In this document: piece by piece, positions 37,207-56,170 of the stretch
Numbering within the stretch: the first letter of the stretch is position 1
How the letters are laid out: each line of letters starts with the position of its first letter
Source of the DNA: Desulfuromonas sp. TF
GTDB taxonomy: Bacteria; Desulfobacterota; Desulfuromonadia; Desulfuromonadales; ATBO01
Assembly: GCF_000472285.1 (NCBI RefSeq)
Contig: NZ_KI421418.1
Span: forward strand, 47,475 to 107,330
Direction: 5' to 3'
DNA: 59,856 bases
Translations under genes and position numbers: made by a program
The notes under the pieces: model-generated
The model's input: only the letters and a program-made list of their open reading frames with translations
The model's database searches: none
Told to the model about the DNA's origin: nothing

Positions 37207-38439
37207 ATGACTGCTAAGAGCATCCCCGTGGCGGAGTTGTCGAACAAGGATCCCGCCTCGCTTCTGAGCCAACTCATCAAAATTGCCTTGGTCTCCCTCC
37301 TCGTCATCCTCTCTCTGGCGGCCGCCAGCATCTATTCCGTCTATTCCCGACATGTAATCTCTCGCGCCGAGATGAATGCGGTCCGAATCGGCAGCGCTCT
37401 TTTGGCTTTGGAGCGGGGCACGCTGCTGGCCCACTCTGCAGAGGGGAGCCGCATTGCCCTCGATGTCGAAAACCTCCCCCAGCTTGACCGTCGACTTCGG
37501 CAATTCCTGAAACCCTTCGCGATCATCAAAATCAAGATTTTTTCGTATGACGGCAGGATCATCTACAGCACCGATCCGTCGATTATCGGTCGTATCGATG
37601 CCGAGAACTCGCGCTTGAAAAAAGCGCTCGCGGGGGAGGTCGATTCCAGGCTGGAGAAAAAGGACGAGGTTATCGACTTGGCTGAAGAGCGCAAGTTCGA
37701 CCTTGATGTGGTCGAGACCTATATCCCGATCAGGAATGACAAGGGCCGGGTGATCGGCAGCTTCGAGCTGTATGTGGATGTTACTGCTGCCCGCCGTGAT
37801 ATTTCCTCCGGTGTGGGGATGTCGATGTTGCTGCTCGCTCTCGCCCTGATCTTCGTCTTTGCCTGCGCTTTCGTTCTGGTGCGGCGAGGGACCAACCAGC
37901 TCAAGGCGACGCAGAATATTCTGCAAATCCTGGCGACGACCGACACCCTGACCTCACTGCTCAATCGCCATCAGATATTTCTGCGGGCTGAACAGGAGTT
38001 TGCACGCCTGGGCCGCGAGCGTGAAGGCGGCGGTACGAAGAAGGCTCTCGGCTTGCTGATGCTTGACGTCGACTACTTCAAACGCCACAATGACACCTAT
38101 GGCCACCAGGCCGGCGACCTGATCCTGAAGGAAATTGCTGACCGCCTCGTCCGGTCGCTCCGTTGCTACGACTTCGTGGGCCGCTACGGCGGCGAGGAGT
38201 TTCTGGCCGTGCTGCCCGGCACCGGCTTTCTTGGAACCCGGGGGATTGCCGAGAGGATCCGGGAGAGGGTGGAAGCCGAGCCGGTCATCATCGGCGGAAT
38301 CGAAGTCCCGGTAACGGTGAGCCTTGGGCTCGCCTGCACTACGGGTGAGGAGGGGAGTTTCGAAGATGCTCTGAAACGGGCCGATGAGGGACTCTATCGG
38401 GCCAAGAGCGAAGGCCGAAACAAGGTCGCCTGGATTTAA
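37207..38439 (+). CDS. Membrane-anchored diguanylate cyclase
   Basis: Makes c-di-GMP. The 410-residue protein has a first membrane helix (about 26-46), a periplasmic CACHE-like sensor domain (about 50-205; FSYDGRIIYSTDPSIIG, VVETYIPIRNDKGRVIGSFELYVDV), a second helix (about 212-232) and a GGDEF domain (about 245-410). The active site is GGEEF. An RxxD inhibitory site (RCYD) sits five residues before it. There is no clear ribosome-binding site before the ATG, so the start is uncertain. Confidence 0.92.
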   Translation: MTAKSIPVAELSNKDPASLLSQLIKIALVSLLVILSLAAASIYSVYSRHVISRAEMNAVRIGSALLALERGTLLAHSAEGSRIALDVENLPQLDRRLRQFLKPFAIIKIKIFSYDGRIIYSTDPSIIGRIDAENSRLKKALAGEVDSRLEKKDEVIDLAEERKFDLDVVETYIPIRNDKGRVIGSFELYVDVTAARRDISSGVGMSMLLLALALIFVFACAFVLVRRGTNQLKATQNILQILATTDTLTSLLNRHQIFLRAEQEFARLGREREGGGTKKALGLLMLDVDYFKRHNDTYGHQAGDLILKEIADRLVRSLRCYDFVGRYGGEEFLAVLPGTGFLGTRGIAERIRERVEAEPVIIGGIEVPVTVSLGLACTTGEEGSFEDALKRADEGLYRAKSEGRNKVAWI

Positions 38440-38638: not shown

Positions 38639-38983
38639 ATGAAAATCGAATTCACACCCGTTCTCCGGGTGGCCGTCGCCGTCCTGGCACTCTTGCTGCT
38701 GGCCGGGTGTGCGGGGGTCGGCGCCCGTACGCGGGATCTTCTTTCTCAAGACTATCACGCTATGAACGACATGGAGATCCAGACCTACTTCTATCAGCTC
38801 AACGACCAGATCGCCAGGGAGGAGAGAGCGGCCAGAGGGACCTCCGTGGGGGTGGGAGTCGGCACCGGCCCGGTGAGCGTCGGAGCCTCTCAAGACGTGA
38901 CGCGCGGGCGAATCGCAGAGGATCTGAGGGACCGGCGCAACGAAGTCCGCGCAGAGCTTAGCAGGCGGGGTCTGATGCCGTAA
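38639..38983 (+). CDS. Small lipoprotein of unknown function
   Basis: A 114-residue lipoprotein; ATG 38639 follows AAGGAG. The signal ends in LALLLLAGC (lipid Cys near 22). The mature part is charged and helical (YHAMNDMEIQTYFYQLNDQIAREERA), then Gly-rich (GVGVGTGPVSVGAS), then helical again (ELSRRG). I do not recognise the family. It precedes the selenoprotein gene by 44 bases, possibly in one transcript. The 199-base spacer before it holds a short gene-like fragment on the minus strand (38525-38610). Confidence 0.75.
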   Translation: MKIEFTPVLRVAVAVLALLLLAGCAGVGARTRDLLSQDYHAMNDMEIQTYFYQLNDQIAREERAARGTSVGVGVGTGPVSVGASQDVTRGRIAEDLRDRRNEVRAELSRRGLMP

Positions 38984-39027
38984 AGGTGTTCCGGCGAGAA
39001 CAGGACGACTTGCAAAGGAGAGATGGC

Positions 39028-39288
39028 ATGAAGGTGCGCAAGAAGTTTCTCGATTACGAGTACGAGGAAGTCCTCGATATCAAGACCCGGGAACTGATCC
39101 GTGTCGCCTGCGCCGTGGCGGTCGGCTGCCCCGACTGACTGAAAAAGCACTTCGCGGTCGCGAAGGAAGCAGGCGCCGGCGATGCGGAGCTGAAAGAGGC
39201 GATCGCCTACGGCATGATCGCCCCATCGGGGCGGGCCAAAAACTTCACCCTTCGGATGCTGGAGGAGTTGGGGATGGACGAGAGATAA
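39028..39288 (+). CDS. AhpD-like (carboxymuconolactone decarboxylase) selenoprotein
   Basis: An 86-residue protein whose codon 37 is TGA (39136-39138), read here as selenocysteine. ATG 39028 follows AAAGGAG. The frame gives the AhpD/CMD signature: TRELIRVACAVAVGCPD-U-LKKH, that is CxxUxxxH where the family has the CxxCxxxH redox centre. The family pattern resumes at once in the same frame, with EAIAYGMIAPSGRAKNF after it, and the frame ends at TAA. A hairpin with a GGTC loop starts 11 bases after the TGA (SECIS-like). Expected role: thiol-based peroxide or redox chemistry. Without selenium decoding it would look like a 36-codon fragment. Confidence 0.85.
39141..39171 (+). promoter_or_regulatory. 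SECIS-like hairpin for UGA recoding
   Basis: CTTCGC (39150-39155) pairs perfectly with GCGAAG (39160-39165) around a GGTC loop. The loop lies 18-21 bases after the UGA, within the distance used by bacterial SECIS elements, and has the GGU that SelB recognises in known cases. The hairpin is inside the coding sequence, as is normal in bacteria. Confidence 0.7.
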
Positions 39289-39299
39289 GGCTTTTCCAC

Positions 39300-39331
39300 C
39301 AATGACCAATGACAAGGGACCAGTGACAGGA
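39300..39331. repeat. Reiterated-word repeat (GACCAATGA type)
   Basis: ACCAATGACCAATGACAAGG is followed by GACCAGTGACAGG, three imperfect copies of one word filling the 45-base gap before recO. Confidence 0.5.
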
Positions 39332-39333
39332 AA

Positions 39334-40098
39334 ATGAAGCTCCTCTCCTCCGAAGCGATCATCCTGCGCCACCTCGATTACGGAGAGGCCGACCGCATCG
39401 TCACCTTTTTCACTCCCGAGCACGGCCGCCTTCGAGGCTTCGCCCGAAGCGCCCGGAAGAGCCGCAAGCGATTCGGCGCGGCCCTGGAGCCCTTTTCCCG
39501 GGTCCGGATGCACTGGTCGCCGCCGTCTTCGGGGGATCTGGTGCGTCTCCGCGAAGCAGAGCTCCTCGACCTGCGTACCGGGCTGCGCGGCGATCTGACG
39601 GCCATCGCCCTGGCCGGCTACGGGTGCGAGCTGGTCGAGGAGATGCTGGGGGAAGAAGGGGGGCAGGTAAGGGCCTACGCGCTGCTCGGCGCCTTTCTCG
39701 ACCACCTGGCCGGGCACGGCGCGTCCCCTGAAGCACGCTTCCTTTTCGAGCTGCGCCTTCTGGTCCTGGCCGGCTACATCCCCCATCTGCTCCATTGCTC
39801 CGAGTGCGCCGCCGGACTCCGCGGCGACGAGGCTGCTTTCGACGCCGCCCGCGGCGGCAGCCTCTGCCCGGAGTGCGCCCCTCCCGGTACGGCCCTGCGG
39901 GTCAGCCCCCTGACCCTGGGAAGCCTCTCGCGTTCCCTGCAGAGCCCGCTCACCCATTTCGCCGGTTTCCGCTTCGGCAGCCGCACTCTTGAGGAGGGAC
40001 GGGCCATCCTGACCGGCGCCCTGCGGCTGCATCTGCACCGGCCGCTCCGTTCCCTCTCATTCCTGGAACGGATGGAGGCAGATAGCGCCTGTTTTTAG
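39334..40098 (+). CDS. recO: DNA repair protein RecO
   Basis: Recombination mediator that helps load RecA on gapped DNA with RecR and RecF. The 254-residue protein has the N-terminal OB fold (SSEAIILRHLDYGEADRIVTFF, GRLRGFARSARKS), a helical domain (ELRLLVLAGYIPHLLHC) and a zinc site CSEC ... CPEC (about 154-190). Length and motif order are usual. It is placed just after the selenoprotein gene and before glyQS. Confidence 0.95.
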   Translation: MKLLSSEAIILRHLDYGEADRIVTFFTPEHGRLRGFARSARKSRKRFGAALEPFSRVRMHWSPPSSGDLVRLREAELLDLRTGLRGDLTAIALAGYGCELVEEMLGEEGGQVRAYALLGAFLDHLAGHGASPEARFLFELRLLVLAGYIPHLLHCSECAAGLRGDEAAFDAARGGSLCPECAPPGTALRVSPLTLGSLSRSLQSPLTHFAGFRFGSRTLEEGRAILTGALRLHLHRPLRSLSFLERMEADSACF

Positions 40099-43412: not shown

Positions 43413-46133
43413 ATGGCAGACACAAAGGAGCAGCTGAAGGTCGTCAAACCGGAGGAGGCAGAGATGGCAGAGAAGTACGTGTATTTCTTCGGGGACGGGA
43501 AAGCCGAAGGAAAAGGGGGCATGAAGAATCTGCTGGGGGGCAAGGGAGCCAACCTGGCGGAGATGACCGCGATCGGCCTGCCGGTTCCGCCCGGATTCAC
43601 CATCACCACCGAGGTGTGCACCGAATTCTACAAGAATAACCGCCGCTATCCCGCCCTTCTCCAGGAACAGGTGGAAGAGAACATGGCCAGGGTGGAAAAG
43701 CTCATGGGAAAGACCTTCGGGGATCCCAAAAAGCCCCTGCTGGTTTCCGTGCGCTCCGGCGCCCGGGCATCCATGCCCGGTATGATGGATACCGTTCTCA
43801 ATCTGGGCCTCAATGACGAGACGGTTCAGGGTGTCATCGAACTGAGCGGAGATCCACGCTTCTCCTATGATTCATACCGCCGCTTCGTCCAGATGTACTC
43901 CAATGTGGTCATGGGAATGGACGGAGACGTGCTCGAGCACCTTCTGGAGCAGATGAAGGAGGATCGGGGAGTCAAGCTGGACACCCAACTTTCCGCTGAC
44001 GACCTGAAAAAGCTGGTGGGGCTCTTCAAGAACAAGGTCAAGGAGGAATTGGGGAAGGAGTTTCCCGACGATCCCAACGAACAGCTCTGGGGGGCGATCG
44101 GCGCCGTTTTCGGCTCCTGGATGAACCCCCGCGCCAATACTTACCGCAAGCTCAACAATATTCCTTCCGAGTGGGGGACTGCGGTCAACGTGCAGTCGAT
44201 GGTCTTCGGCAACATGGGCGATGACTGCGCCACCGGCGTCGCCTTTACCCGAAATCCATCCACAGGCGAGCATCTTTTCTTCGGCGAGTTCCTGGTTAAT
44301 GCCCAGGGCGAAGACGTGGTGGCCGGCACCCGCACTCCGCAGCCGATCAACAAGGCCGGCGGTGACGGCTCCCTCCCCTCCATGGAAGAGGTGATGCCCC
44401 AGTGCTACGATCAGTTGATGCAGGTCCAGGTCACCCTGGAGAAGCATTACCGCGACATGCAGGACATCGAGTTCACCATCGAGAAGGGCAAGCTCTACAT
44501 GCTGCAGACTCGCAGCGGAAAGCGCACCGCCCGGGCGGCCATCAAGATCGCCGTCGACATGGTGAAGGAAGGGCTGATCAGCGAAAAAGAGGGGGTGCTG
44601 CGGGTCGGTCCCGAGCAGCTCGATCAGATCCTGCATCCGACCCTCGACCCCAAGGCGCCCAAGGAAGTCATTGCCAAGGGGCTCCCGGCCTCTCCCGGCG
44701 CCGCCAGCGGCGAGGTGGTCTTCTCTGCAGACGAAGCCGAGGAAGCGGCCAAGCTCGGGCTCAAGGTCATCCTTGTTCGCATCGAAACCAGTCCCGAGGA
44801 TATCCACGGGATGCATGCCGCCCAGGGGATCCTCACCGCCCGAGGCGGCATGACCTCGCATGCGGCGGTGGTGGCACGAGGCATGGGCAAGTGCTGCGTT
44901 GCCGGTTGCGGCGACATCAAGGTCGACTACCGTACCCAGCAGTTTACCGCCCGGGGCGGATCGGTTATCAGCAAGGGCGATATCATCACCCTCGACGGCT
45001 CCACCGGCGAGGTGATGAAGGGGCAGGTCCCCACCGTCCAGCCGGAGCTGACCGGAGACTTCGGCACCCTCATGAAATGGGTGGATAAGTACCGTCGTCT
45101 CGGTGTGCGCACCAACGCCGACACCCCTCACGACTCCAAGGTCGCCCGCCAGTTCGGGGCCGAGGGGATCGGCCTGTGCCGCACCGAGCACATGTTTTTC
45201 GAAGGGGAGCGGATCATGGCGGTTCGGGAGATGATCCTGGCCGAGGACATCGAAGGGCGCAAGCGGGCCCTGTCCAAGATCCTGCCCATGCAGAAGGGCG
45301 ACTTCCTCGGCATCTTCCGCGAGATGAAGGGACTGCCGGTCACCATCCGCCTCCTCGATCCGCCCCTTCACGAGTTCCTTCCCCATACCGAGGCGGAAAT
45401 CGAGGAACTGGCCAAGGTGATGAACGTGTCGGTCGCTACCCTGAAGAACAAGGTCGAGTTCCTCCACGAGTTCAATCCCATGCTCGGCCATCGCGGCTGC
45501 CGGCTCGGCATCACCTTCCCTGAAATCTACGACATGCAGGTGCAGGCCATCATGGAAGCCGCCTGCGAACTGGTCAAGGACGAAGGGTATGAGATCATTC
45601 CCGAGATCATGATTCCGCTGGTCAGCGAGGTCAAGGAACTGGCGATTCTCCGGGGCCATGCCATCCGCGTCGCCGACGAGGTGATTTCCCGCTACGGCAT
45701 CAAGGTGAAGTACCTGATCGGGACGATGATCGAACTTCCCCGCGCCGCTCTTACCGCCGACGCCATCGCCCGGGAAGCCGAATTCTTCTCCTTCGGCACC
45801 AACGACCTGACGCAGACCACCTACGGGCTGTCGCGCGATGACGCCGGCAAGTTCCTCCCCTTCTACGTGGAACGGGAGATACTCCCCAACGATCCCTTCG
45901 TCGCCATCGACCAGGAAGGGGTGGGGCAGCTGGTGAAAATGGGGTGCGAAAAGGGGCGCCAGACGCGCCCGGATATCAAGCTTGGCATCTGCGGCGAACA
46001 CGGCGGCGAGCCCTCCAGCGTCATCTTCTGCCATAATATCGGCCTCGATTACGTTTCCTGCTCCCCCTTCCGGGTCCCCATCGCCCGGCTGGCGGCCGCG
46101 CATGCGACGCTGCTGGAAGAACTTGGCCGGTAA
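43413..46133 (+). CDS. ppdK: Pyruvate, phosphate dikinase
   Basis: Interconverts pyruvate, ATP and phosphate with phosphoenolpyruvate, AMP and pyrophosphate, for gluconeogenesis or PPi-linked glycolysis. The 906-residue protein has an ATP-grasp domain (GGKGANLAEMTAIGLPVPPGF, RSGARASMPGMMDTVLNLG), the swivelling phosphohistidine domain with GGMTSHAAVVARGMG (catalytic His near 485, with the regulatory Thr two residues before) and the PEP-binding barrel (GIGLCRTEHMFF, FGTNDLTQTTYGLSRDD, catalytic Cys in GICGEHGGEPSS). The start has GGAGGAGG nearby; a second Met at 43464 is possible. No PpdK regulatory kinase is adjacent. Confidence 0.97.
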   Translation: MADTKEQLKVVKPEEAEMAEKYVYFFGDGKAEGKGGMKNLLGGKGANLAEMTAIGLPVPPGFTITTEVCTEFYKNNRRYPALLQEQVEENMARVEKLMGKTFGDPKKPLLVSVRSGARASMPGMMDTVLNLGLNDETVQGVIELSGDPRFSYDSYRRFVQMYSNVVMGMDGDVLEHLLEQMKEDRGVKLDTQLSADDLKKLVGLFKNKVKEELGKEFPDDPNEQLWGAIGAVFGSWMNPRANTYRKLNNIPSEWGTAVNVQSMVFGNMGDDCATGVAFTRNPSTGEHLFFGEFLVNAQGEDVVAGTRTPQPINKAGGDGSLPSMEEVMPQCYDQLMQVQVTLEKHYRDMQDIEFTIEKGKLYMLQTRSGKRTARAAIKIAVDMVKEGLISEKEGVLRVGPEQLDQILHPTLDPKAPKEVIAKGLPASPGAASGEVVFSADEAEEAAKLGLKVILVRIETSPEDIHGMHAAQGILTARGGMTSHAAVVARGMGKCCVAGCGDIKVDYRTQQFTARGGSVISKGDIITLDGSTGEVMKGQVPTVQPELTGDFGTLMKWVDKYRRLGVRTNADTPHDSKVARQFGAEGIGLCRTEHMFFEGERIMAVREMILAEDIEGRKRALSKILPMQKGDFLGIFREMKGLPVTIRLLDPPLHEFLPHTEAEIEELAKVMNVSVATLKNKVEFLHEFNPMLGHRGCRLGITFPEIYDMQVQAIMEAACELVKDEGYEIIPEIMIPLVSEVKELAILRGHAIRVADEVISRYGIKVKYLIGTMIELPRAALTADAIAREAEFFSFGTNDLTQTTYGLSRDDAGKFLPFYVEREILPNDPFVAIDQEGVGQLVKMGCEKGRQTRPDIKLGICGEHGGEPSSVIFCHNIGLDYVSCSPFRVPIARLAAAHATLLEELGR

Positions 46134-56090: not shown

Positions 56091-56170
56091 TCTCTTCGGC
56101 GGCTCGGCTATCCACTTGGGACCCGTGACTCTGCGTCTCTGGATTGCTCCAGATTTGCTATTGTCGGAGA
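56091..56170 (-). promoter_or_regulatory. c-di-GMP-I (GEMM-I) riboswitch
   Basis: The minus strand shows the GEMM-I core in order. AGCAAA is followed by the P2 hairpin TCTGGA-GCAA-TCCAGA with a GNRA loop, then GACGCAGAG, then TCACGGGTCC. Next come the P3 return TAGCCGAGCC and GCCGAAGAGA, which can close P1 with the 5' TCTCCGAC. The GNRA loop, the GACGCA joint and the CACGGG...AGCCG stem are the family hallmarks. Combined with the terminator downstream and GGDEF-EAL genes in the operon, it implies feedback by c-di-GMP. Confidence 0.85.

Follow-up and report, generated by a model that had tools for sequence, protein, structure and literature searches.

A predicted selenoprotein gene of the known GSU3128 family in Desulfuromonas sp. 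TF and its putative SECIS hairpin

A gene of Desulfuromonas sp. TF that is split by an in-frame TGA codon very probably encodes a compact, selenium-containing redox protein with the CMD/AhpD fold, a member of the known GSU3128 family (NF041047). The gene occupies positions 39028 to 39288 (+) of the window, by which we mean the whole stretch of 59,856 nucleotides that was analyzed. It starts with ATG (39028 to 39030) and ends with TAA (39286 to 39288), and its sole internal TGA (39136 to 39138, +), the predicted selenocysteine (Sec) codon, is codon 37. A Shine-Dalgarno-like AAGGAG, read directly from the sequence, lies 7 nt 5' of the ATG (39015 to 39020, +). Translated with TGA as U, the product has 86 residues, with Sec37 as the second position of CxxC in the redox motif GCPD-U-LKKH (C34-x-x-U37-x3-H41). 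The read-through protein matched the NCBIfam model NF041047, “GSU3128 family (seleno)protein,” with 157.7 bits (cutoff of 110) over profile positions 1 to 83 of 84, and Pfam PF02627 (CMD) with 50.3 bits (cutoff of 23).

A preliminary description of this DNA had reported the same frame with one TGA at codon 37, and our re-reading returned identical coordinates and the same placement of the TGA within the motif. Its statement that the protein remains family-like past the TGA is borne out by the full-length NF041047 match and by a downstream frame that is conserved in 91 distinct genes. Its proposal of Sec insertion is favored by the alignment of homologues and by the Sec genes of the genome. It erred in calling the selenoprotein overlooked, at least at the family level, since a curated NCBI equivalog model (NF041047) and papers from 2005-2006 onward list the family. 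As far as the available text of these papers goes, a carboxymuconolactone decarboxylase homologue in G. sulfurreducens, which we infer to be GSU3128, was predicted by read-through in 2005 (PMC1242214); a “distant AhpD homolog” was included in the selenoprotein tables of a 2006 survey for G. sulfurreducens and G. uraniumreducens (PMC1794560); and the family was listed with the motif CxxU in reviews from 2022 (PMC9312934) and 2026, the latter under NF041047 (PMC13188914). A literature search with most subscription papers outside its scope found no experimental work on the GSU3128 family. The selenoprotein family is already known and has stood in lists for about twenty years, and the finding is correct but ordinary. 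The gene described here matches the family over its full length, has CxxU in the same place and Sec predicted at the TGA, and differs from it in nothing of substance; it is a further member with the commonest form of the hairpin described below. The split gene is nevertheless real, and its annotation as one protein is called for.

Conservation of codon 37 and the Sec machinery

All 106 loci that matched at E < 1e-20, which represent 91 distinct genes counting that of the window, had TGA at codon 37, and none had Cys. These close loci comprise the window and the loci up to L172, including two copies of the same gene (L022 and L120) and other duplicates; the count was made without preselecting TGA loci, and the gapped alignments of L117 and L125 were counted. 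Twelve of 12 further stretches beyond the close loci also had TGA at this codon. When one match per locus covering codon 37 was taken at E ≤ 1e-8, the 114 loci consisted of 111 with TGA, 2 with TGC, and 1 with TGT. Among 46 weaker matches, 10 had Cys at this codon, 5 had a stop, and 25 had another residue, and the position was gapped or not covered in 6. Of the examined loci that have Cys at codon 37, the closest was L145, which is 48.9% identical. The alignment of homologues that the preliminary description had proposed as a check has therefore come out in its favor: they extend past the TGA and are conserved there, the close ones carrying TGA and some distant ones Cys. The GSU3128 family apparently always uses Sec (the Cys form was seen in 0 of 91 distinct genes), and it is well suited to the question of why some proteins do not go back to Cys.

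Surveys of other genomes gave a similar picture. A scan of genome contigs yielded 64 loci, and among the genomes of 98 relatives, 47 had a match at E ≤ 1e-5; every match at E ≤ 3.0e-32 contained an internal TGA, in one case with a TAG as well. In the class Desulfuromonadia, 136 of 277 genomes had a family member above the NF041047 cutoff, with an internal TGA in every match row, the position of the TGA having been verified in individual loci rather than in each row of this class table. In a sample of the phylum, 16 of 395 genomes scored above the cutoff, all from the same class. Plasmids were searched too and gave 433 matches, all below 60% identity; among the 10 of these that were listed, 9 carried the annotation “carboxymuconolactone decarboxylase family” and the tenth had none.

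Five loci from other families of the phylum (L132 to L136), 41 to 45% identical, have TGA at codon 37 and a similar downstream sequence. They fall below the NF041047 cutoff (71.0 to 77.3 bits for the three of five that were scored) and may form a sister group of selenoproteins for which no separate model exists. In one relative, a second copy of the gene (L183, on contig 112 of genome G031) carries an additional in-frame TAG and is apparently decaying.

The genome of Desulfuromonas sp. TF (4,402,753 bases in 17 contigs) has the genes that the preliminary description had suggested looking for. The selA, selB, and selD genes (616.9, 381.5, and 359.5 bits) adjoin one another on contig C17 (239876 to 244188), and tRNA-Sec (80.9 bits), with anticodon TCA according to ARAGORN, is found on the same contig (250738 to 250829). 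The selD gene (L010) has its own in-frame TGA, in the context LSRSSGUAAK, so that the genome has at least one further predicted selenoprotein gene, SelD.

Across the 277 class genomes, selB was detected at E ≤ 1e-60 in 126 of the 136 that carry the family versus 111 of the 141 that lack it. Of the 10 family genomes without selB at this threshold, 5 had tRNA-Sec and 2 more had selA; in the 3 others, G486 (59% complete), G598 (96%), and G608 (99%), searches for selA, selB, and tRNA-Sec found none. The genes in G598 and G608 (L173 and L174) keep both the TGA and the common hairpin. A missing contig is the easy explanation for these two genomes, because the sel genes and tRNA-Sec lie within about 11 kb in the genome of the window; alternatively, Sec decoding may have been lost recently.

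Two readings would deny Sec at codon 37. The TGA could be a true stop, leaving a decayed CMD gene or a 36-residue peptide: TGA is a stop in table 11, the table-11 open reading frame from 39028 has 36 codons and so falls below the 60-amino-acid limit of the open reading frame list, and one relative (G031) has the decayed-looking second copy with an extra TAG. We consider this very improbable, because a pseudogene would drift, whereas the frame downstream is conserved in 91 distinct genes and codon 37 in them is TGA throughout, with no case of TAA, TAG, or a sense codon. The TGA could also be a sequencing error for the Cys codon TGC or TGT, which do occur at codon 37 in 10 of the 46 weaker CMD matches; with TGA in 106 of 106 close loci, this reading is refuted by the comparative data and its probability is negligible.

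The predicted SECIS hairpin and its variation

The feature that we predict to be the SECIS element is a hairpin at 39150 to 39165 (+) composed of CTTCGC (39150 to 39155), the loop GGTC (39156 to 39159), and GCGAAG (39160 to 39165). The preliminary description had already pointed to a GGTC-loop hairpin, which is present, but placed it 11 to 27 bases downstream; it covers bases 12 to 27 after the TGA. The stem has 6 bp, and the loop begins at 17 nt from the UGA. In the available text of the 2026 review, the bSECIS rule asks for an apical loop of 3 to 9 nt, a stem of 4 to 16 bp, a G in the first two loop positions, and a distance of 16 to 37 nt from the UGA, with a minimum free energy of at most -7.5 kcal/mol (PMC13188914). 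The hairpin agrees with this rule, whose specificity is low, in loop, stem, and spacing, and its energy is borderline to the limit (-7.1 kcal/mol for the 16-nt core and -8.7 kcal/mol for 19 nt).

Neither fold stability nor the rule was taken as proof. We rejected thermodynamic significance as evidence for the hairpin, as 145 of 200 shuffles of a 67-nt stretch folded at least as well (z of 0.67). Our own hairpin criterion, a stem of 5 bp or more within the loop and spacing limits, was satisfied by 85 of 85 family sequences, but also by 32% of 20,000 versions in which codons 38 to 51 had been resampled synonymously.

More telling is the constraint on synonymous sites. Over codons 41 to 46, which mostly read CAC TTC GCG GTC GCG AAG, the synonymous third-base entropy in 91 distinct genes averaged 0.14 bits (0 to 0.35 for single codons). 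No other run of six codons went as low, and the 55 runs without any overlap had 0.92 bits or more, with a mean of 1.21. A set of 69 genes gave the same picture. Other single codons of low entropy were 23, 36, and 61 (0.39 to 0.58 bits).

Pairing in the stem is also preserved. In a comparison of 85 distinct stretches of 45 nt, standard pairing was seen at each position of the stem in 84 or all 85, and the loop was GGTC at 17 nt from the UGA in 73. The outer pair changed from C-G to T-A in 3 of the 85, through two synonymous changes, and the second pair changed from T-A to C-G in 3 of the 85, through Phe42 to Leu and Lys46 to Arg jointly. Each of these trios is confined to one genus, so they probably represent two events. 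L163 kept the stem, with the loop AGGT. We suggest that it is the synonymous constraint and the paired changes, not fold stability, that mark the hairpin as a predicted SECIS.

Rfam searches of the gene at E ≤ 10 gave no matches, and the window at the gathering threshold gave only a riboswitch. Rfam SECIS_1, which we take to be a eukaryotic-type SECIS family, had no matches in the genome, and none in 14 control genomes, making this search uninformative.

The new detail concerns one genus, g51, where the hairpin may have been partly rewritten and shifted by 3 nt. Position 44 is Leu in the 11 folded sequences from this genus. Four of them (L125, L175, L177, and L180) have a new hairpin of 6 to 8 bp whose loop, GGCA, begins at 20 nt from the UGA. 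In the other seven (L117, L164, L172, L176, L178, L179, and L181) the old stem is possible with the loops CCTG, CTTG, or TCTG, which lack a G in the first two places, and the minimum-energy fold differs in 6 of the 7. At E ≤ 1e-60, selB was detected in 10 of the 11 genomes; the remaining one has selA. We tentatively propose, in a post hoc reading of these sequences to which we give somewhat less than even weight, that the family as a whole always uses Sec and that in g51 its SECIS was rewritten with a shift of one codon. If this is true, g51 offers a natural experiment on shifts in SelB recognition. The GSU3128 family is also a clean case for how a SECIS hairpin evolves within coding sequence.

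Fold, active site, and likely function

An AlphaFold2 model built with 30 sequences had a mean pLDDT of 93.0 and a pTM of 0.75. The top Foldseek matches were RclX (7y4r; E of 0.0016) and 3bey (E of 0.0019), with none at or below 0.001, and VIA-align gave Z scores of 10.4 and 10.0 for the same two structures. A sequence search against solved structures agreed with these fold matches (7.7e-10 for 7y4r and 1.6e-7 for 3bey). It is this sequence match that carries the fold assignment, because for helical bundles, as the tool itself warns, Z scores under about 13 may be commonplace.

The residues expected of an AhpD-type site are in place. Glu22 (codon at 39091 to 39093, +), Cys34 (39127 to 39129, +), position 37, and His41 (39148 to 39150, +) are all invariant in the 30-sequence alignment, with spacings of 12, 3, and 4. 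Cys34 is Cys in 79 of 79 close loci (TGC in 58 and TGT in 21), and His41 is His in 69 of 69 distinct genes. The site of M. tuberculosis AhpD, in the available text of its description, consists of Glu118, Cys130, Cys133, and His137 (PMC3141380), and it is by this spacing that Glu22 is assigned to a putative AhpD-type proton relay. The fifth AhpD relay residue (His132; Tyr50 in PA0269) is absent, the gene of the window having Asp36. In 26 GSU3128 members position 36 is Asp or Thr, and once Val. The sister group has Thr there in L133 and L134 and His in L132 and L136; these last two carry CxHU, comparable to CSHC of M. tuberculosis AhpD.

Comparison with known proteins places the product near AhpD, but not within it. 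AhpD of M. tuberculosis (1gu9 and 1knc) and Pseudomonas PA0269 share with it the CMD-type fold and the spacing Glu-x11-Cys-x2-Cys/Sec-x3-His. The product differs in having Sec in place of the second Cys, in its length of 86 residues versus about 170 to 175 for the M. tuberculosis chains, and in its failure against the AhpD subfamily model TIGR00777 (13 bits against a cutoff of 191.95). It may work like AhpD, yet we do not file it in AhpD sensu stricto. RclX (7y4r), the best solved match by both sequence and fold, is a longer Cys form with a CxxC site and is about 35 to 38% identical. ArsM-AhpD (NF041537) and MduS (NF045649), whose models are longer (345 and 338 positions), matched weakly over the CMD part and far below their cutoffs. 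The motif CxxU has been published, in the portion of the literature available to us, for ArsM-AhpD and for AhpD-like 1 and 2 of the GOS survey; the latter two are likened to the product by this motif description.

We postulate the following mechanism. SelB, bound to the hairpin that starts 12 nt after the UGA, would deliver Sec-tRNA(Sec), and Sec would be inserted at codon 37, as sequence conservation and the presence of the machinery suggest. Sec37 would take the place of the second redox Cys of AhpD (Cys133 in M. tuberculosis), with Cys34 as its partner and Glu22 and His41 as the proton relay. The selenolate might attack a peroxide or disulfide, and Cys34 might then resolve the intermediate as an Se-S bond, followed by reduction by a thiol system.

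In function, the product is likely a peroxidase or disulfide oxidoreductase that works through a selenol, with an AhpD-type site of Glu, Cys, Sec, and His. That it is a peroxidase rather than a protein with another redox role we regard as an even call. There is also a fair-sized chance, if one below even, that the Sec-containing protein is not a peroxidase and acts instead as a thiol-disulfide adaptor, the part that AhpD plays for AhpC, or in some other redox role. The available literature describes AhpD as the AhpC adaptor, the closest solved fold, RclX, is named in papers on hypochlorous acid stress, insofar as their text was available, and no shared gene neighbor indicates a substrate. Nothing in these data separates an adaptor from a peroxidase. 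This question concerns function alone, and an adaptor is compatible with the identity of the protein as a selenoprotein.

Gene neighborhood and the rest of the window

Gene neighborhood was rejected as a clue to an operon or partner. A recO cluster lay directly downstream in 5 of 91 distinct loci (6 in 105 loci before deduplication), and no neighbor cluster occurred in more than 17 of the 91; because many loci have only about 1.5 kb of flank, this count sees adjacent genes at best. In the window, recO, glyQ, and glyS lie downstream of the selenoprotein gene, and a GGDEF diguanylate cyclase (37207 to 38439, +) lies two genes upstream. A 382-amino-acid open frame (38890 to 40038, -) runs antisense to the selenoprotein gene and recO and is probably a shadow frame in GC-rich coding DNA.

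A crude filter found 20 TGA codons in the window with long GC3-rich frames on both sides, 2 of which had a Cys three residues away: codon 37 and a TGA at 44626 (-), in the context CRIUSSC. We rejected the latter as a second selenoprotein, as it lies antisense within a 906-amino-acid frame (43413 to 46133, +) and so probably belongs to a shadow frame. The window also contains a c-di-GMP-I riboswitch (Rfam RF01051, 48.9 bits) at 56095 to 56169 (-).
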